Origin: Nitrospinae bacterium RIFCSPLOWO2_12_FULL_45_22
Lineage (GTDB): Bacteria; 2-12-FULL-45-22
Reading direction: 5' to 3'
Assembly: GCA_001803565.1 (NCBI GenBank)
Contig: MHDQ01000196.1
Span: forward strand, 8,647-15,172
Length of the DNA: 6,526 nt
Part shown: positions 1 to 6,430 of the stretch, one piece after another
Layout of the letters: each line of letters begins with the position of its first letter
Numbering within the stretch: the stretch's first letter is position 1
The notes under the pieces: generated by a model
Databases searched by the model: none
Told to the model about the DNA's origin: nothing
Seen by the model: the letters and a program-made list of their open reading frames with translations, nothing else
Made by a program: the position numbers and the translations under genes

Positions 1-174
1 TTCGGTGTGTGATTAAGGATTGTTCTGAGACAAAAAATATGATATGCTAGCCCCATATTTTGATAGCAGAGGAATTTTCTTTTTGGACCCAGATGAACAC
101 AGATTATCTGGCTATTAACCAAGGTGAGTTGTGAGCAGTGAGGAGTAAGCAGTGACTGCTCACTAAAATAAAAA
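1..174. other. Non-coding left edge with small repeats
   Basis: No convincing gene is visible here on either strand. The stretch contains a short inverted repeat (CCAGAT at 89-94 and ATCTGG at 106-111), a heptanucleotide tandem repeat (124-158) and an A-rich run at 165-174 that borders the mobile-element-like repeat starting at 175. With that element it makes up the 380 bases upstream of the first acyl-CoA dehydrogenase gene. Confidence 0.6.
124..158. repeat. Heptanucleotide tandem repeat, five degenerate copies (GTGAGCA-like)
   Basis: Five consecutive 7-base units read GTGAGTT, GTGAGCA, GTGAGGA, GTAAGCA and GTGACTG. The tract runs into a palindrome, with AGCAGT at 148-153 and ACTGCT at 155-160 separated by one base. 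A longer pairing of GTGAGCAGT (131-139) with ACTGCTCAC (155-163) is also possible. It is intergenic and has no coding potential. Similar heptad repeats are known from cyanobacterial and other genomes, but their function is not established. Confidence 0.65.
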
Positions 175-204
175 GGGTGTGGCTATTCTTTGTCATAAAA
201 CCTA

Positions 205-315
205 GTAGTTACTCAATAAGTTGTGGAAAATGCCCTTGAACCAGACGCTGATTCTTCTCCGCGTCTCTGTGCCTCTGCGGTGATATTAACTCCCCACAAG
301 ATATTGAGCAATTAC
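205..315. repeat. Inner inverted repeat inside copy A enclosing a G+C-richer loop
   Basis: Bases 205-226 match the reverse complement of 294-315 at 18 of 22 positions, including CTCAATA and TTGTGG blocks. The loop holds a purine/pyrimidine-biased motif at 257-282 (CTCCGCGTCTCTG followed by TGCCTCTGCGGTG). From general knowledge, closely similar sequence is scattered through intergenic regions of several environmental bacterial phyla. Together with the outer ends this would fold into a long hairpin. The core has no counterpart in copy B. Confidence 0.6.
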
Positions 316-333
316 TTCCACTACCATTATTAA
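304..333 (+). promoter_or_regulatory. Possible sigma70-type promoter for the acyl-CoA dehydrogenase pair
   Basis: TTGAGC (304-309) and TATTAA (328-333) are separated by 18 bases and each match the consensus at 4 of 6 positions. A start site just downstream would give a leader of roughly 40 bases before the ATG at 381. The boxes lie inside MITE-like copy A, so if real this would be an element-borne promoter. The region is AT-rich, so a chance match is quite possible. Confidence 0.25.
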
Positions 334-380
334 TGGATTTCTGACAGAAAATAGCCCCCCCAAATAAAAGGGAGAGGGTT

Positions 381-1553
381 ATGGACTTCAGGTTTACTCA
401 GGAAGAGGAGAAGTTTCGACAGGAGATAAGGGAATTTCTCAAGCGAGAACTCCCTCCTGATTGGACAGGGTGGCCAGTTTTGGGAGAAGCGGATACTGAT
501 GAAGATTGGGCATTTTGCCGGCAGATGACCCGCAAGTTGGCCGAGAGGGGCTGGTTAGCTATTGGCTGGCCCAAAGAATATGGTGGCCAGGGGGCATCCT
601 ATATCATGCAGATCATCCTTAGTGAGGAAATTAATTATCATCAGTCACCCGGGATGGATTTTATGGGTATCGGGATGCTGGGGCCTGCTCTGATGGCCCA
701 TGGGGCTGAGGAACAGAAGAGGCGCTATCTCCCTGGTATTGCCCGGGCAGAGGTAGTCTGGTGCCAGGGTTTTAGCGAGCCTAATGCCGGTTGCGATTTG
801 GCATCGCTCCAGACCAGGGCGGTAGAAACTGACGACTGTTTTATTGCTAATGGCCAGAAACTCTGGACCAGTAATGCCCACCGGGCAGATTGGTGCTTTT
901 TTTTAGCCCGGACAGACCCAGAAGCCCCTAAACATAAAGGAATCAGCTTTTTATTGGTGGATCTCAAGACCCCGGGTATTACGATCCGTCCCCTCGTAAA
1001 TATAGCCAATGGCCGGTCTTTTAATGAGGTCTATTTTGATGAAGTGAGGGTCCCTAAAGAGAATTTGGTGGGGCAGAAGAACCGAGGATGGCAGGTAGCC
1101 CAGACTTTGCTGGGGCATGAGCGATCGGGGATACATAGAATTGCAAGCGCCAGACGTAACGCTGATCTTTTAATCGAGTATGCCCGCGAGACCGGCTTGG
1201 GCAAAGACCCCTTGATAAAGCAGAAGCTGGTCCAGCTAACCATTGAGGGAGATATAGCCAGACTCCTGGCTTATCGCGTGGGCTGGCTACAAACTACGGG
1301 ACAGGCTGTAGAATATGAAGCCTCTATGTCCCGGGTATATGGTGCAGAATACCAGCAACGGGTTGCCCGGGTAGGCATGCAAATCCTGGGCCTCTATGGT
1401 CAACTGGCGAAGGATTCTAAATGGACAAAACTGTATGGAAAAATAGAAGAAGATTATCTGTGCTCTATTGGTGCAACCTTAGCTGCCGGTACTTCTGAGA
1501 TACAGAGAAATATTATTGCCTTAAGGGGCTTGGATCTACCCCGGGGCAATTAA
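381..1553 (+). CDS. Acyl-CoA dehydrogenase family protein, putative catalytic subunit of a heteromer
   Basis: This 390-residue flavoprotein subunit has the usual acyl-CoA dehydrogenase length and layout: an N-terminal helical domain (about 1-125), a central beta domain with the signature GFSEPNAGCD (130-139) and KLWTSNA (160-166), and a C-terminal helical domain ending in GTSEIQRNIIA (370-380). The family removes two hydrogens at C2-C3 of an acyl-CoA, passing electrons to FAD and then to an electron-transfer flavoprotein. The medium-chain-type catalytic Glu (before GT) is Ala369 here. Instead E247, in LLGHER, sits where isovaleryl- and long-chain dehydrogenases carry their base. The FAD-clamp motif RxQFxxPI is replaced by a shortened stretch at 267-286, and the QxxGGxG motif is degraded to QILGLYG (334-340). 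The ATG is supported by AAGGGAG six bases upstream. It is probably paired with the next gene, 52 bases downstream, as in PimC/PimD or the mycobacterial steroid FadE heteromers. The substrate is unknown. Confidence 0.95.
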   Translation: MDFRFTQEEEKFRQEIREFLKRELPPDWTGWPVLGEADTDEDWAFCRQMTRKLAERGWLAIGWPKEYGGQGASYIMQIILSEEINYHQSPGMDFMGIGMLGPALMAHGAEEQKRRYLPGIARAEVVWCQGFSEPNAGCDLASLQTRAVETDDCFIANGQKLWTSNAHRADWCFFLARTDPEAPKHKGISFLLVDLKTPGITIRPLVNIANGRSFNEVYFDEVRVPKENLVGQKNRGWQVAQTLLGHERSGIHRIASARRNADLLIEYARETGLGKDPLIKQKLVQLTIEGDIARLLAYRVGWLQTTGQAVEYEASMSRVYGAEYQQRVARVGMQILGLYGQLAKDSKWTKLYGKIEEDYLCSIGATLAAGTSEIQRNIIALRGLDLPRGN

Positions 1554-1554
1554 T

Positions 1555-1589
1555 AACCAATAACTAATGACCAATGACCAATAACTAAA
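1555..1589. repeat. Heptanucleotide tandem repeat, five copies (RACYAAT)
   Basis: Five 7-base units follow the stop codon of the first dehydrogenase gene: AACCAAT, AACTAAT, GACCAAT, GACCAAT and AACTAAA. The tract fills almost all of the 52-base gap and stops one base before the strong Shine-Dalgarno sequence of the next gene. Its unit differs from the heptad tract at 124-158, though the period is the same. It is too AT-rich and unstructured to be a terminator, so the two genes can still be co-transcribed. Confidence 0.8.
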
Positions 1590-1605
1590 TGGGGAGGGAA
1601 AGATT

Positions 1606-2739
1606 ATGGATCTGGGGTGGAATGAAGAACAGGAGATGCTTAGAAAGACCGCACGGGATTTTTTGGCCAAAGAATGTCCTCCAACATTGATACGGGCTGT
1701 GGAAGAAGACGATAAGGGGTACTCTCCTGAGCTCTATAAGAAGATGGCTGAGCTAGGCTGGCTGGGATTGGTGTTTCCAGAGAAATATGGTGGCGGTGAT
1801 GGTGAGTTTCTGGATTTAGTAGCTTTACTAGAAGAGATGGGGCGTTACCTGGTACCAGATACTTTTGTCTCTACGGTAGTCCCTTGCGGCCTGCCTATCC
1901 TTTCTGCTGGCAGTGAGGAACAGAAGCAAAAGTTATTACCCCAGATAGCCGCTGGGAAGATAATCCTGGCCCTTGCCCTGACCGAGCCCAGCGCTACTTA
2001 TGACCCCAGTGGCATTACTGTGCGGGCTGTGGCAGGGAAGGATGATTATATTATCAATGGCACTAAGCTATTTGTCCCTAATGCCCATATAGCCGACTAT
2101 CTGCTCTGTGCTGCCCGTACTAAAGAAACGGCTAAGAAGGAAGATGGGATAACCCTATTTTTGGTAGAGAGTAAGAGCCCGGGGATATCTTGCGCCTTAC
2201 TAAAGACCATCGCCTCTGATCGGCAATGCGAGGTAAATTTTAAGGATGTAAGGGTGCCCAAAAAGAATATCGTAGGTGATCTGGATAAGGGTTGGGCAGT
2301 TCTGAGCAAGGCATTAGAACAAGCTGCTATTGCTGAATGTACCCTGATGCTGGGTGGTGCCCAGCAAGTCCTGGAAATGACAGTCAATTATGCCAAAGAG
2401 CGGATCCAGTTTGATCGCCCTATTGGCAGCTTCCAGGCCATCCAGCATAAATGCGCCAATATGCTTATTGATATTGATGGTGCCAAATATATCACTTACC
2501 AGGCCGCCTGGAAATGCAGCGAGGGCCTTGATTGTACCCGGGAGGTATCTATGGCTAAGGCATGGGTAAGCGAGGCTTATCAGCGGGTCTGCATAGAAGC
2601 CCATCAGATCCATGGCGGCATAGGCTTCACTAAGGAACATGACCTCCAGCTCTATTTCCGCCGGGCAAAGAAGTCAGAGCTGGCCTTTGGTGACGCCACC
2701 TTTCATCGGGAGCTAGTTGCCCAACACTTAGGGCTATAA
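1606..2739 (+). CDS. Acyl-CoA dehydrogenase family protein, putative FAD-binding non-catalytic partner
   Basis: This 377-residue protein has the full acyl-CoA dehydrogenase fold: an N-terminal helical domain with PEKYGG (58-63), a central domain with the degenerate signature LTEPSATYD (125-133), and a C-terminal domain. It keeps the FAD-clamp motif RIQFDRPIGSFQ (266-277) and QIHGGIG (334-340), both missing from the upstream protein. It lacks a catalytic Glu at both known positions: the medium-chain site reads FGDAT (361-365), and the residue aligned with E247 of the partner is Ala240. E238, two residues away, is the only nearby acid. The simplest reading is that it supplies cofactor binding and architecture to an alpha2beta2 enzyme whose base is on the partner. 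The start is firm, with GGGGAGG eight bases before the ATG. No intrinsic terminator is visible after the stop. Confidence 0.95.
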   Translation: MDLGWNEEQEMLRKTARDFLAKECPPTLIRAVEEDDKGYSPELYKKMAELGWLGLVFPEKYGGGDGEFLDLVALLEEMGRYLVPDTFVSTVVPCGLPILSAGSEEQKQKLLPQIAAGKIILALALTEPSATYDPSGITVRAVAGKDDYIINGTKLFVPNAHIADYLLCAARTKETAKKEDGITLFLVESKSPGISCALLKTIASDRQCEVNFKDVRVPKKNIVGDLDKGWAVLSKALEQAAIAECTLMLGGAQQVLEMTVNYAKERIQFDRPIGSFQAIQHKCANMLIDIDGAKYITYQAAWKCSEGLDCTREVSMAKAWVSEAYQRVCIEAHQIHGGIGFTKEHDLQLYFRRAKKSELAFGDATFHRELVAQHLGL

Positions 2740-3019
2740 ATATAAAAAAGGGTAAATCTAAAAACGGAAATTTAATAAATTTAAGTAGTGTCCCTTAATT
2801 TCATTCAAACTAATTTATTTATGGACCCAGGTAAAAATTCATTGATCTGAGTGAGATAAAGGCTTCTTAGTAGGAAGGGGGGGATTATGCTACCCTCCAA
2901 TAAATTTGTCCCATTAAGGGATAACAACAGGCTTTGCGGCGCTCTATTATTTTGGATTAATGGGTTGAGGTCGCTCCATGCCGCCCGCTTCATGGTACCG
3001 CCTGGCGTCTAGAGGTTGC
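2740..3019. other. Convergent intergenic gap without a gene
   Basis: This 280-base AT-rich gap separates the ends of the + strand dehydrogenase genes and the - strand dehydratase-family genes. A short - strand reading frame at 2805-2993 has no recognisable motif or good ribosome-binding site and is not called. No hairpin followed by a T-run is seen for either operon. The only structure noted is a 9-base inverted repeat about 131 bases across. Confidence 0.6.
2791..2921. repeat. Short inverted-repeat pair, possible degenerate mobile-element remnant
   Basis: TCCCTTAAT (2791-2799) is the exact reverse complement of ATTAAGGGA (2913-2921). Farther in, AATTTATT (2812-2819) is mirrored by AATAAATT (2900-2907), so the two ends match in two blocks with an unmatched spacer. 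The interior is non-coding, and no target duplication is apparent. It could be a decayed MITE or chance in AT-rich DNA. Confidence 0.3.
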
Positions 3020-4333
3020 TCAGGTTAGGGGTAAGGGGGTGAGGCCGAGGCTCTGGAGGAAAGATTCCAGGTGATCCAGTACCTGGATCTCTTGCAACTC
3101 CCGCGGATCAGCGCTGCTCCCTTCATAGACCATACTGGGGATACCTTCGTTTTGTAAACCCAGCCGCTGTTCTACATGGTGTGCGGCCCCGCCTTTACAG
3201 GAACGGTCCAGGATAAATATTACTCCATCAGCCTTCCAGCCCTGGGCTACTTTCACCTGCTCTTCCACCTTTAAGGAAAGAAGGAAAGAGCTTATCATGG
3301 GGGTATAGATTAAATATAGCTCTGCCAGGGCATTGAGGGCATCATCCCGGTTCTTTATCACTATACCCCGCTCAGTGGGAGTTTTAGCCACCTTCCAGGC
3401 GCCGTCCCCGGCCACTTCAAAGGCCCCATGAATAGCAAACATCATGCGGCCACCAATAAACGTTGCCCCGTATTTTTGAGGAAGCTTCATGATACTCTTG
3501 TTATACCAGGGGGGTAACCCTTCGTGCAGCAACCGGCACCGTTCCCAGGCAAAGGCAGCTATCTGGTTCTTTACCCGATCCTCTACTTCATCACATAGCA
3601 TCTGGAGCCAATCAGCGGTCCCTTTCTTATGTTTAGCCGATACCATCAAGGTAGTGAAGGAATTGAACATCTTTAGGTCCAATGGCGCCGGTATAGCCTT
3701 CTGGAAATCGCTGATCTTTGCCCAGCATACCTGACTACGCCACTCATTCTGTACCGCCTCCAGCAACAACTCATCATCATATTTCTTTTTGGTAACCTTT
3801 TCCATCCACTCAATCGCCTGGTGCATCTGGGAGATAAGATAATTTTTCCCAATCTCGATCCGTGACTCCGGGATGATCGGGATATCTACCGCGAAAAAAG
3901 GGATGCCATAGTGTTCGCTGAGCATGAGGGAGGTCTTGGCCTGGGCTTCACAGGCATGGGCATCAATGCAAAAATCCGGTACTACCATATCTCCCCAGGG
4001 GCTACGGTTATGAAAATCGAGCAGGGCAGACCCCAGGCTTACCCGCAGTGTAGCACAAGTATCTGCTGCCAGGCCCTTGACTTCGGCCGCCTCATGGCAT
4101 CTAATGGCCAGGTCGCGGTCACGCATTATCCGGGAAAAATAAGGCCCCACACCAAATATGCCACAATCACCCAGCCCCGCTGAGAGGGAAGATAGCATGG
4201 CATAACCCCCTAAGATTAAAGGCTCGCCACGCTCTTTGGCCTTCCACATGCTTAAAAAATAGTCCTTTCTTAACTCCTTCATCCTTTGCCAGCAATCCAA
4301 AGGTTTTGTCTCATATTTCTGTAAAGTGTTCAT
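3020..4333 (-). CDS. 2-hydroxyacyl-CoA dehydratase / benzoyl-CoA reductase family, large (HgdA/BcrB-like) subunit
   Basis: This 437-residue subunit belongs to the oxygen-sensitive Fe-S family that includes HgdA and BcrB. Such proteins bind a [4Fe-4S] cluster and act with a paralogous smaller subunit, using single electrons from an ATP-hydrolysing activator. Numbering from the ATG at 4333, candidate cluster cysteines are C93 (ADTC, followed by LRVSLG), C122 or C128 (PDFC and AHAC) and C379 (DRSC). These spacings resemble the family pattern. Other family-like segments are YGIPFFAVDIP (about 142-152), EGLPPW (271-276) and a C-terminal EGSSADPRE block. The N-terminal region is divergent. The ATG at 4333 is preferred because AAAGGA lies eight bases upstream; a TTG at 4354 would add seven residues but falls next to the inserted repeat. 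Family membership is clear, but the substrate (aromatic, 2-hydroxyacyl or other) is not. Confidence 0.88.
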   Translation of the reverse strand: MNTLQKYETKPLDCWQRMKELRKDYFLSMWKAKERGEPLILGGYAMLSSLSAGLGDCGIFGVGPYFSRIMRDRDLAIRCHEAAEVKGLAADTCATLRVSLGSALLDFHNRSPWGDMVVPDFCIDAHACEAQAKTSLMLSEHYGIPFFAVDIPIIPESRIEIGKNYLISQMHQAIEWMEKVTKKKYDDELLLEAVQNEWRSQVCWAKISDFQKAIPAPLDLKMFNSFTTLMVSAKHKKGTADWLQMLCDEVEDRVKNQIAAFAWERCRLLHEGLPPWYNKSIMKLPQKYGATFIGGRMMFAIHGAFEVAGDGAWKVAKTPTERGIVIKNRDDALNALAELYLIYTPMISSFLLSLKVEEQVKVAQGWKADGVIFILDRSCKGGAAHHVEQRLGLQNEGIPSMVYEGSSADPRELQEIQVLDHLESFLQSLGLTPLPLT

Positions 4334-4341
4334 CTCTCGCA

Positions 4342-4347
4342 TCCTTT
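4342..4347 (-). promoter_or_regulatory. Ribosome-binding site that sets the large-subunit start
   Basis: On the - strand AAAGGA is followed by eight bases and then the ATG at 4333. The two upstream in-frame alternatives are poorer: an ATG at 4342 overlaps the site itself, and the TTG at 4354 has no Shine-Dalgarno sequence. Confidence 0.65.
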
Positions 4348-4361
4348 CGCACAAATGATAT

Positions 4362-4504
4362 GGGTGTAACTAGTTTCTGTCAGAAATCCATTAACCCTGT
4401 AGTGGCAGAGCCGGGTACCCTTTGGGTGCTGCTAGGAATGTCGAGCAAGCTCGACCACTACAAATTATATTATATAGGCTTTATGACAAAGAATAGCCGC
4501 ACCC
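4362..4504 (-). mobile_element. MITE-like palindromic element, copy B, between the two dehydratase-family genes
   Basis: This 143-base non-coding element, read on the - strand, begins with the same 30 bases as copy A (4475-4504, 28/30 identical) and ends with the same 25-base block (4370-4394, 24/25). Both termini start GGGTG when read inwards and match each other at about 18 of 25 bases. Flanks are AAATGATAT (4353-4361) and AAATATATT (4505-4513), a poor but possible target duplication. Its right edge lies eight bases from the stop codon of the upstream gene, and its left edge is 28 bases from the start of the downstream gene. It therefore fills the gap between the two cistrons. The core differs completely from that of copy A. 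No transposase is encoded. Confidence 0.7.
4399..4462. repeat. REP-like palindromic core of copy B
   Basis: The core is bounded by TGTAGTGG (4399-4406) and its exact reverse complement CCACTACA (4455-4462). Inside are a near-perfect hairpin arm (GTCGAGC, AA, GCTCGAC at 4440-4455) and the palindrome GGGTACCC (4413-4420). A hairpin in the message between the two cistrons is likely. No T-run follows it on the - strand, so it is not an obvious intrinsic terminator. Confidence 0.65.
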
Positions 4505-4512
4505 AAATATAT

Positions 4513-5640
4513 TCACAGTATCTCTTGCCTGAGCACCTCGATAAATGCCTCTACGCGAGTACGGAACTGCCCTACCGGGATAGTAATATCGGTCTCTAGC
4601 TCCAGGGTAGGGATGTTATGGGACTTAAGCAATGACTTAATAACGGGTAAGTCGTAACCATGAGGGTCACAGAATTTTTGCTGAATGAGGATTGCCCCAT
4701 GGACCTTATAATCTTTAACCAACTGTAGTATATGGGGTAGGCGACGTCGTTCTACCAGGTCTTTTTGTGGGCACAAAGGCCGCTGTATATAACGCTGGGC
4801 AATAGCGGCCAGGCGATCCTCTTCGGGAATAATCTCATTCCAGAAATAGCGACTGCCGGTACAATGGTCATCAATTACCAGATTAGCTCCCAGGGATTCA
4901 GTCAGGTGTAAGAAGCCCAGGTCATCGCTCTCGCTACCGATAAGCATTAAGCGAACTCCTGGTTCAAGCCCATTTTTCTCTTGCTGCAACTCTTCTAGCA
5001 TAGACCTGAGCCAATAGTTATGCTCCTCTTTATCCATAAACATACTGGCTAGCACCATCTCCATAGACCCTGCGCCAGAGATCGGTGGCCGCTCCCGCTT
5101 CCTGAGCTCATAAATTTGCCTCATCAGGCGCCGGTTAGTGTTATATATTTCTATGCTATGGTCTAAAGCCTGCGTAGAGATAGTATTGCCGCTCCAATCT
5201 TCTAATGCCTGTTTAAGGGCCTGGAGTTCTTCTGTTAAACAGTCCCTGGCGGAAGGATTTACCAGATGGGCGGGCATATAAAGATAATAACTAAAAGTAA
5301 TAGGTATATGCCGTCGCCAACTGTCAAAGGTCTGGCGTATATGCATACACGAATGGGCAGTTATAATACCGTCCAAATAGCTATACTCTCCTTTCAGGCC
5401 CTGGGCCAGGCAGTCCCTGGAATGAGCACAGTACATACCATAGATATGCATCTCGCTTATATCCTGGGGCTCATGGCTACCCATGATCCGCACTGGCAGG
5501 ATACCAGCGGCATAGATGACTTCTTCAGGGACATAAGTACACAAATAGCCCATTACCTTCCCACCAGTACGGGCTTTCCATTCCTGGGCATATTGATGCC
5601 GCTCTGTAACTACTTGCTGAAATTTATCTAGTGCCTCCAC
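4513..5640 (-). CDS. 2-hydroxyacyl-CoA dehydratase / benzoyl-CoA reductase family, small (HgdB/BcrC-like) subunit
   Basis: This 375-residue protein has the classic HgdB/BcrC layout and length. The N-terminal block GYLCTYVPEEVIYAAGILPV (31-50) is diagnostic. Candidate [4Fe-4S] ligands are C71 or C77 (YCAHSRDC), C98 (AHSC) and C324 (KFCDP), with C34 and C260 (DDHCTGSRYFW, 257-267) also at conserved places. The C-terminal block LELETDITIPVGQFRTRVEAF (346-366) is typical of the family. It would pair with the downstream large subunit, and the order small-then-large matches bcrC-bcrB, bzdN-bzdO and badD-badE. No activator (HgdC or BcrA/BcrD type) is visible nearby. Translation starts at a GTG supported by AAAGG nine bases upstream; the next Met (residue 30) would remove the start of the conserved block. 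Reductive dearomatisation versus 2-hydroxyacyl dehydration cannot be decided from this protein alone. Confidence 0.92.
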   Translation of the reverse strand: MEALDKFQQVVTERHQYAQEWKARTGGKVMGYLCTYVPEEVIYAAGILPVRIMGSHEPQDISEMHIYGMYCAHSRDCLAQGLKGEYSYLDGIITAHSCMHIRQTFDSWRRHIPITFSYYLYMPAHLVNPSARDCLTEELQALKQALEDWSGNTISTQALDHSIEIYNTNRRLMRQIYELRKRERPPISGAGSMEMVLASMFMDKEEHNYWLRSMLEELQQEKNGLEPGVRLMLIGSESDDLGFLHLTESLGANLVIDDHCTGSRYFWNEIIPEEDRLAAIAQRYIQRPLCPQKDLVERRRLPHILQLVKDYKVHGAILIQQKFCDPHGYDLPVIKSLLKSHNIPTLELETDITIPVGQFRTRVEAFIEVLRQEIL

Positions 5641-5763: not shown

Positions 5764-5767
5764 CTAC
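5746..5767. repeat. Perfect tandem duplication of an 11-mer across the toxin stop codon
   Basis: AATGCTCCTAC occurs twice in immediate succession (5746-5756 and 5757-5767). The toxin stop codon (complement of 5764-5766) lies in the second copy. It looks like a slippage or end-duplication event. Confidence 0.85.
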
Positions 5768-6171
5768 GGTTTAAGTTCTTTACCTGTTTCCCAGTCAAGA
5801 TGCGTTTCCTTCTCTGCATGAAGATACCAGATAGAAATCCCATCATGGTGGGTGCGGATGGTTGTGCCCATTCTTTTGGCTTTTGTTTTGAAGTACACAT
5901 GACAGAGCAAGCGGCGAACAAAAACTGCAGCCTCGTATTGCCAGACATTCATGCAAGCCAGACAATAGCCTGCATGACACAAGTTGCGCCTGTAAAAACC
6001 CAAATCTAGGGTGAAGAAAGTTGGACGGCTGAGTGTGTGCAGGAAGGGAATAACCTCATCATCTTTCATCCCCTTCCGCCCCACCTCATAGCCGATTTGA
6101 CGAATCGGTATGCGCCAACCCCGGAGAAGCTGACGCTGACTTTCAGGAAAATTTTCATCCAAGACAATCAC
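5764..6171 (-). CDS. DUF5615 / VapC45-like PIN-related toxin
   Basis: This 135-residue protein resembles the DUF5615 (Mut7-C-like PIN) family, whose members are putative ribonuclease toxins. The N-terminus MIVLDENFP (1-9) gives the first acidic pair (D5, E6). GRKGMKDDEVI (31-41) carries D37/D38, and FFTLDLGFY (52-60) carries D56, matching the usual acidic pattern of the PIN-like active site. A C-terminal extension (about 75-135) includes H/R-rich segments and ends KELKP. A small cysteine cluster (C65, C70, C73) may be structural. Translation starts at a GTG that overlaps the antitoxin stop in a GTGA quartet, so the two are translationally coupled. Assignment rests on the motifs and on the DUF433 partner; RNase activity is inferred. 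Confidence 0.85.
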   Translation of the reverse strand: MIVLDENFPESQRQLLRGWRIPIRQIGYEVGRKGMKDDEVIPFLHTLSRPTFFTLDLGFYRRNLCHAGYCLACMNVWQYEAAVFVRRLLCHVYFKTKAKRMGTTIRTHHDGISIWYLHAEKETHLDWETGKELKP

Positions 6172-6422
6172 GTAGTGGTTAACTCTAGAGTATATTCATG
6201 AGCATGTTCAATGAATGCTTGACTTGCAAGACGGACAGCTTCGGCAATAGCTTCCTTTGTGATACTACCGCGCCATTCCTCGATAATCGCTTCCCATGAC
6301 ATTCCATTCGCAGCCTGTTCCAAAACCTGCCAAACCATAATGCGTGTACCGCGAAATGTTGGCTTACCATGGCAGATCTCTGGGTCAGTGACAATGTAGC
6401 GACCAATCATTTTACTTTTCAT
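6168..6422 (-). CDS. DUF433 / VapB45-like antitoxin
   Basis: This small protein (84 residues from the preferred start) matches the DUF433 family over nearly its whole length. The hallmark DPEICHGKPTFRGTRI is followed by VWQVLEQAANGMSWEAIIEEW and a helical tail. DUF433 proteins have a helix-turn-helix-like fold and are typically encoded just upstream of a DUF5615 toxin, as here, where the stop overlaps the toxin GTG by four bases. The start is ambiguous: GAGGGG (6431-6436) is only two bases from an ATG at 6428 but eight from the ATG at 6422, so the latter is preferred. It presumably neutralises the toxin and represses its own promoter, by analogy with type II antitoxins. Confidence 0.9.
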   Translation of the reverse strand: MKSKMIGRYIVTDPEICHGKPTFRGTRIMVWQVLEQAANGMSWEAIIEEWRGSITKEAIAEAVRLASQAFIEHAHEYTLELTTT

Positions 6423-6430
6423 TTCCATAT

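Follow-up and report, generated by a model that had tools for sequence, protein, structure and literature searches.

Short repeats with shared ends and different cores in a Nitrospinae genome: a probable ISKra4-type shell around REP-derived units

It is already known that repetitive extragenic palindromic (REP) sequences occur within miniature inverted-repeat transposable elements (MITEs) or within longer palindromes. QMITE2 of Coxiella burnetii, as far as the excerpted account of it goes, is a MITE with direct repeats of 7-11 bp that contains a GTAG REP (PMC5896051), and the GTAG-15 dimers of Anabaena variabilis and the CGTC-1 dimers of H. neapolitanus lie inside long palindromes, the outer palindromes having been left unexplained (PMC3733652). 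In REP doublets forming hairpins (REPINs), a pair of REPs, both bearing a GTAG-type foot, stands in inverted order, and the movement of such doublets is attributed to REP-associated tyrosine transposases (RAYTs; PMC3116915; PMC3733652). Here we analyze a stretch of 6,526 nucleotides (the window; contig C196, positions 8647-15172) from the Nitrospinae bacterium RIFCSPLOWO2_12_FULL_45_22, in which two short repeats, copy 1 at 175-361 and copy 2, inverted, at 4362-4504, have nearly the same ends around different interiors. We explain them, with a probability of roughly 0.87, as copies of a MITE shell with ISKra4-type ends, a family whose cores are usually REPINs, copy 1 having received a nested second MITE.

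The families, which an earlier note on this DNA had left unrecognised, are identified here as an ISKra4-type MITE shell and a REPIN core. Compared with the known cases, the analysis newly identifies the shell as ISKra4-type with its duplications, finds several cores within a single shell family and resolves how the elements are nested in the window. REP pairs within longer palindromes would thereby be explained, in that the outer palindrome can be a MITE derived from an insertion sequence (IS) and offers REPINs a second route of spreading. Moreover, layered insertions together with a deletion would give rise, in one genome, to short repeats with the same ends and unrelated middles; existing knowledge of transposition chemistry is unchanged by the finding.

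The outer shell and its ISKra4-type ends

Genome-wide counts were obtained by pattern and BLAST searches of the assembly (3.67 Mb, 321 contigs, 85% complete). The end pattern GGGTGTGGCTATTYTYTGTCA, with at most one mismatch allowed, occurs at 41 places, as against none for the reversed pattern used as a control, and 19 copies, 106-280 bp in length, possess both ends, starting with GGGTGTGGCTATT and finishing in its inverted form. Chance is thus excluded as the origin of the shared ends, and the further copies that the earlier note had called for do exist; nor did the ends prove to belong to separate, unrelated repeats. BLAST searches of the genome with copy 1 and copy 2 as queries gave 53 and 45 matches, respectively. 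The 19 paired copies are short, non-coding and bounded by terminal inverted repeats (TIRs), as is characteristic of MITEs.

The flanks of these copies carry direct repeats, which match at 9/9 positions in six copies and at 8/9 in five more (11/19 with at least 8/9). Taken over all 19 copies, 127 of 171 flank positions are identical, compared with 83 +/- 6.4 when the right flanks were shuffled 20,000 times, and none of the shuffles reached 127. The repeats peak at a length of 9 bp only, and the target of the insertion is AT-rich, close to AAATNAWTT. A target site duplication of 9 bp is therefore present at the family level; the window copies taken alone give 8/9 (read manually) and 5/9. Sequence comparison confirms 175-361 and 4362-4504 as two copies of one MITE family, which appears to be mobile. 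Their shell comprises the following parts.

175..361, plus strand: copy 1, ISKra4-type MITE, with its left end at 175 and its right end at 361 (TIRs and family match)
175..204, plus strand: left TIR of copy 1 (arm pairing, end pattern)
330..361, minus strand: right TIR of copy 1 (arm pairing)
166..174, no strand: left flank of copy 1, AAATAAAAA, one half of a putative 9-bp target duplication (direct sequence reading and the family statistics)
362..370, no strand: right half of this putative duplication, AAATAAAAG, 8/9 identical in the manual register
4362..4504, minus strand: copy 2, inverted MITE with an intact REPIN core (arm pairing, family match)
4353..4361, no strand: flank of copy 2, a decayed putative target duplication, AAATGATAT, 5/9 against the other flank as scored
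4505..4513, no strand: other flank of copy 2, AAATATATT, which agrees with AAATGATAT on the assumption of a one-base loss

The similarity of the ends reported in the earlier note was reproduced, 175-204 being complementary to 4475-4504 at 28/30 positions and 330-354 to 4370-4394 at 24/25. On the right, copy 1 ends in CCCCCCC, one base short of the consensus, which puts the automatic table out of register (5/9); its flanks were therefore read manually. Copy 2 has no clear flank repeat as scored, and AAATGATAT and AAATATAT agree given the loss of one base. Relative to shuffled sequences, copy 1 (187 bp) folds with a z of -4.2 and copy 2 (143 bp) with a z of -2.6.

At C10:8846 an ISKra4 transposase fragment has the MITE end, matching the end pattern at every base, immediately beyond its stop codon. 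This fragment of 247 residues, whose reading frame runs off the contig, matches the second half of the ISKra4 transposase model NF033572 of NCBIfam (E 8.8e-60, 203 bits). A protein search of the genome found it to be the sole ISKra4 transposase copy, and by eye no ISKra4-like element was seen beside the MITE ends at C44, C76, C235 and C281. For comparison outside the genome we used three plasmid-borne ISKra4 elements from annotated records. The ends of the Calothrix/Nostoc elements, GGGTGCGGCT, are near-identical to the MITE ends; in two of the three elements the ends read GGGTGCGGCTCTT, and their AT-rich duplications, ATATGATTT and TTTTAATAT, are exact over 9 bp; the third has the end TGGGTGCGACTCTT. 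In a published survey of the superfamily, the inverted repeats measure 18-39 bp and the duplications 8 or 9 bp (PMC3942029). Our repeats have the terminal GGGTGYGGCTMTT, the inverted repeats and the 9-bp AT-rich duplication in common with ISKra4 ISs (p-MULT 4, Mutator superfamily; ISCasp3, Calothrix sp. PCC 6303), and a transposase fragment of this IS family adjoins the same end in the host genome. Unlike these ISs, the window copies contain no transposase gene, and the inner TIR sequence of the MITE is unlike that of the cyanobacterial elements. Since the C10 fragment, the ISKra4 ends and the 9-bp duplications agree, we file the window repeats as ISKra4-family MITEs. The full-length IS with the same termini, for which a search had been suggested, was recovered only in part: a transposase fragment carries the same end, but a complete IS was not found in the genome.

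A tyrosine recombinase was also considered as the partner, prompted by a left end on C127, and rejected, as that copy is truncated and the integrase-like reading was made by eye only. This lone left end (C127:16737, L065) borders the apparent C-terminal part of a tyrosine recombinase.

REPIN cores and RAYT genes

Sorting of the cores by eye, as was also done for the C104 comparison and the deletion model below, assigned 11 of the 19 copies, copy 2 included, to a GTAGTGG-hairpin-linker-hairpin-CCACTAC core or a variant of it. The others carry GTAACTC...GAGTTAC (4/19), GTAGGGG...CCCTAC (one copy) or a weaker GTAGC...GCTAC (one copy); copy 1 stands apart, and the copy at C279 is ambiguous.

4399..4461, minus strand: REPIN core of copy 2, GTAGTGG-TCGAGCTTGCTCGAC-linker-GCAGCACCCAAAGGGTACCCGGCTCTGC-CACTAC; similar blocks occur without MITE ends

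Both this core and the stand-alone copies show GTAG at the 5' foot of the hairpin and two inverted REPs, the layout of a REPIN. The GTAGTGG-hairpin REP pattern GTAGTGGNNGAGCNNGCTCNNC has 78 matches in the genome and none for the control, and about 50 of the 78, judged by contig position, lie outside every recognised MITE copy. Stand-alone pairs occur at C165, C129, C302, C251 and C300, among other places, so the REPIN is a repeat in its own right; in these five, homology to the MITE core begins just outside GTAG and ceases just outside CTAC. The earlier note had offered two possibilities, a modular non-autonomous element and the nested insertion of REP-like units into a common carrier, and both hold. 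The carrier has TIRs and 9-bp target duplications and shares a terminus with an IS-type transposase fragment, and its cores are REP-like units and MITEs that are also found outside it.

Four genes in the genome match RAYTs, three of them (C282, C49 and C141) above the cut-off of NF047646 (NCBIfam) and the fourth, at C37, being interrupted or degenerate. GTAGTG-type hairpin REPs (GTAGTG-CAGGTC) lie at both sides of the C141 gene and GTAACTC-type REPs at both sides of the C37 gene, the latter being the core type of other MITE copies.

The GTAGTGG-, GTAGGGG- and GTAGC-type copies have a common right junction (CTAC, 4-5 bases, TTAATGG), which would therefore reflect one capture with later change of the hairpin in place; the junctions of the GTAACTC-type copies differ from these and would reflect a second capture. 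Hence, the junctions suggest one REPIN capture for the former cores and another for GTAACTC.

In their GTAG (or GTAA) foot, hairpin, inverted pair and stand-alone copies these units are the same as the GTAG REPs and REPINs described with RAYTs (PMC3116915; PMC3733652), and the host genome likewise has RAYT genes, two with flanking REPs of this general layout; they differ in that many REPINs here are enclosed by IS-derived TIRs. As in Anabaena GTAG-15 and H. neapolitanus CGTC-1, REP dimers lie regularly within a longer inverted repeat, but here the outer palindrome consists of IS-type ends with target duplications. QMITE2, too, is a MITE with direct repeats enclosing a GTAG REP; in the excerpted account, however, it has one core type and an unassigned transposase family, whereas the present family has several cores and nested MITEs and can be assigned to an IS family.

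Other arrangements of the same REPs were also observed. At C268:5053, C320:6093, C20:5964 and C138:3638 a longer palindrome sits at the tip of the REP hairpin in nested-doll fashion, for example a CTTCGGCC...GGCCGAAG-like sequence within GTCGAGC..GCTCGAC. At C151 (L074) and C128 (L075) the REPs lie, in outward orientation, within a further inverted-repeat family, AGTTSCCACTGAAAAAT...ATTTTTCAGTGGSAACT, of which apparently only one end is present at C257.

The nested second MITE and the history of copy 1

The interior of copy 1 contains two further features.

205..315, plus strand: nested second MITE-like element, GTARTTACTCAATA...TATTGAGCAATTAC, with an inner palindrome of ACCGCAGAG/CTCTGCGGT type; stand-alone copies elsewhere
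316..336, plus strand: remnant of the REPIN right arm plus inner MITE sequence, TTCCACTACCATTATTAATGG (comparison with the C104 copy)

The palindrome around CTCCGCG..TGCGGTG, described earlier as the core of copy 1, is present, but it is only the inner portion of the larger inverted repeat at 205-315, which represents a separate family. The interiors of the window copies do differ, as had been reported, except that copy 1 retains the REPIN-type remnant at 316-336, adjoining its right end. The second MITE has the ends GTAATTACTCAATA and TATTGAGCAATTAC, and its stand-alone copies are flanked by exact 8-bp duplications at C222, C181, C132 and C130 and by a 7/8 repeat at C11. Both an 8-bp target duplication and ends starting with GTAA are present, which we take to be IS66 features, and we treat an IS66-type name for the copy 1 core only as a lead.

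Positions 316-354 (TTCCACTACCATTATTAATGGATTTCTGACAGAAAATAG) are identical to the C104 copy at 39/39 bases, and in C104 TTCCACTA is a portion of the REPIN right arm. In copy 1 the nested element is flanked by AAAACCTA on the left and TTCCACTA on the right; a deletion must be assumed because it has no duplication of its own. On the simplest reading, the element would have inserted into the REPIN right arm, a deletion via a shared CTA following later.

Altogether, we propose that an ISKra4 transposase (Mutator superfamily, DDE), possibly the C10 protein or its full-length relatives, would recognise the ends of about 28 bp, GGGTGTGGCTATTYTYTGTCAKAAA, in trans and insert the MITE with a 9-bp duplication at AT-rich targets near AAATNAWTT. 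Most copies have as their middle a REPIN, i.e., two inverted GTAG-tagged REP hairpins of a separate repeat class, probably moved by RAYTs. REPINs would have been captured by the MITE on two or more occasions, one giving rise to the site common to the GTAGTGG, GTAGGGG and GTAGC cores and one to a different site for GTAACTC. Bounded by the ISKra4-type ends, the composites would then have been propagated whole, the hairpins diversifying in place. In copy 1 a GTAATTAC-ended MITE, which makes 8-bp duplications, would have inserted in the REPIN right arm and placed another TTCCACTA on its left, and a deletion between CCTA and ACTA via the shared CTA would have removed the left part of the REPIN. The window cores would thus look swapped because copy 1 lost this part of its REPIN after the second insertion.

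A parallel case is found at C40, where 137 extra bases, including a TA duplication, interrupt a GTAGTGG-type core; the insert bears a CGTCATTCC hairpin, and removal of the insert with one TA restores the uninterrupted sequence as in copy 2. The TA-duplicating element, present at C40:2587-2723 (L041) and C211 (L066), is bounded by TACAGAGCG and has a hairpin core of CGTCATTCCGG. It is probably a third MITE family with a CGTC-type REP and may be IS630-like.

Competing explanations and genomic surroundings

Several observations weigh against the proposed composite. Eight of the 19 paired copies fall below 8/9 in the automatic table, both window copies among them, copy 1 owing to its register shift. 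The nested element in copy 1, as mentioned, lacks its own duplication, and REPs of the exact type of copy 2 (GTAGTGG-TCGAGC/CAGAGC), the commonest in the MITE cores, were not found flanking any RAYT gene in this genome, a difference from the described REPIN/RAYT systems. The autonomous partner is represented by one partial copy in a genome that is 85% complete; the contig end cuts the C10 fragment and leaves its opposite terminus, target duplication and integrity out of view, and its score lies slightly under the NF033572 cut-off of 205 bits, which is expected because the protein is cut. Finally, at most one other genome was available for comparison in the phylum (as in the class and family), both the end pattern and the transposase are absent from it, and relatives offered no empty sites. 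Beyond the phylum, IMG/VR yielded nothing that matched the MITE end or the GTAGTGG REP, nor any relative of the transposase; in genome_contigs a 19-mer was matched exactly once (L061, Cyclobacteriaceae), as against about two such matches expected by chance according to our own arithmetic.

An unlikely alternative is that the shell is a standing cassette in which RAYTs exchange the REPIN cores in place, so that two unrelated transposition systems spread one composite, a DDE transposase for the shell and a tyrosine transposase for the core jointly diversifying it. Such exchange should be recognisable by core junctions that stay the same around differing hairpins, and by the breakage of single-ended copies at the GTAG foot. 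Breaks no more than one base away from the REPIN foot are seen at C121, C268, C275 and C320:6093, and these four cases are compatible with cleavage there.

We consider it slightly less probable again that the REPIN-like cores are plain parts of the MITE, their stand-alone copies being MITEs that lost their ends. The short copies of Coxiella QMITE2 are described, in the excerpted account, as truncated MITEs (PMC5896051), and the four single-ended copies show that decay to the REPIN foot does occur. However, the REPs outside recognised MITE copies (about 50 of 78), those arranged tail-to-tail or inside another inverted-repeat family (C151, C128), and the RAYT gene with GTAACTC-type REPs at its sides argue for an independent repeat.

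It is improbable that another transposase family (e.g., ISL3 or IS256) moved the ends and that a MITE end came to lie near the ISKra4 gene at C10 by chance. The single, truncated ISKra4 transposase would permit this, but the C10 end abuts the stop codon almost without a gap, and independent ISKra4 elements share the terminal GGGTGYGGCT and the 9-bp AT-rich target duplication.

Least of all do we expect the shared ends to be an RNA or regulatory feature under selection (e.g., a terminator or attenuator cassette) rather than a transposon: both copies are intergenic and fold better than shuffles, copy 1 lying immediately 5' to an acyl-CoA dehydrogenase open reading frame and copy 2 between two benzoyl-CoA-reductase-like genes, but we rejected this explanation as Rfam gave no match, window positions 100-500 gave no promoter and a terminator match at chance level only, and the 9-bp target duplications and the identity of the ends with ISKra4 termini favor a transposon.

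Besides the ISKra4-type MITEs, the window contains a pair of neighbouring acyl-CoA dehydrogenase genes and, on the opposite strand, two HgdB-type subunits (381-2739 and 3020-5640), which resemble the benzoyl-CoA reductase subunits BzdN and BzdO below the model cut-offs. These genes probably belong to an anaerobic aromatic or dicarboxylic acid pathway. At 5764-6428 a DUF433 gene is followed by a small gene whose protein has no family match; possibly the two form a toxin-antitoxin-like pair. A GTGAGCAGTGAGGAGTAAGCAGTGACTGCTCAC-like repeat lies at 130-165, just before copy 1, and similar sequence occurs at C143 and C76.

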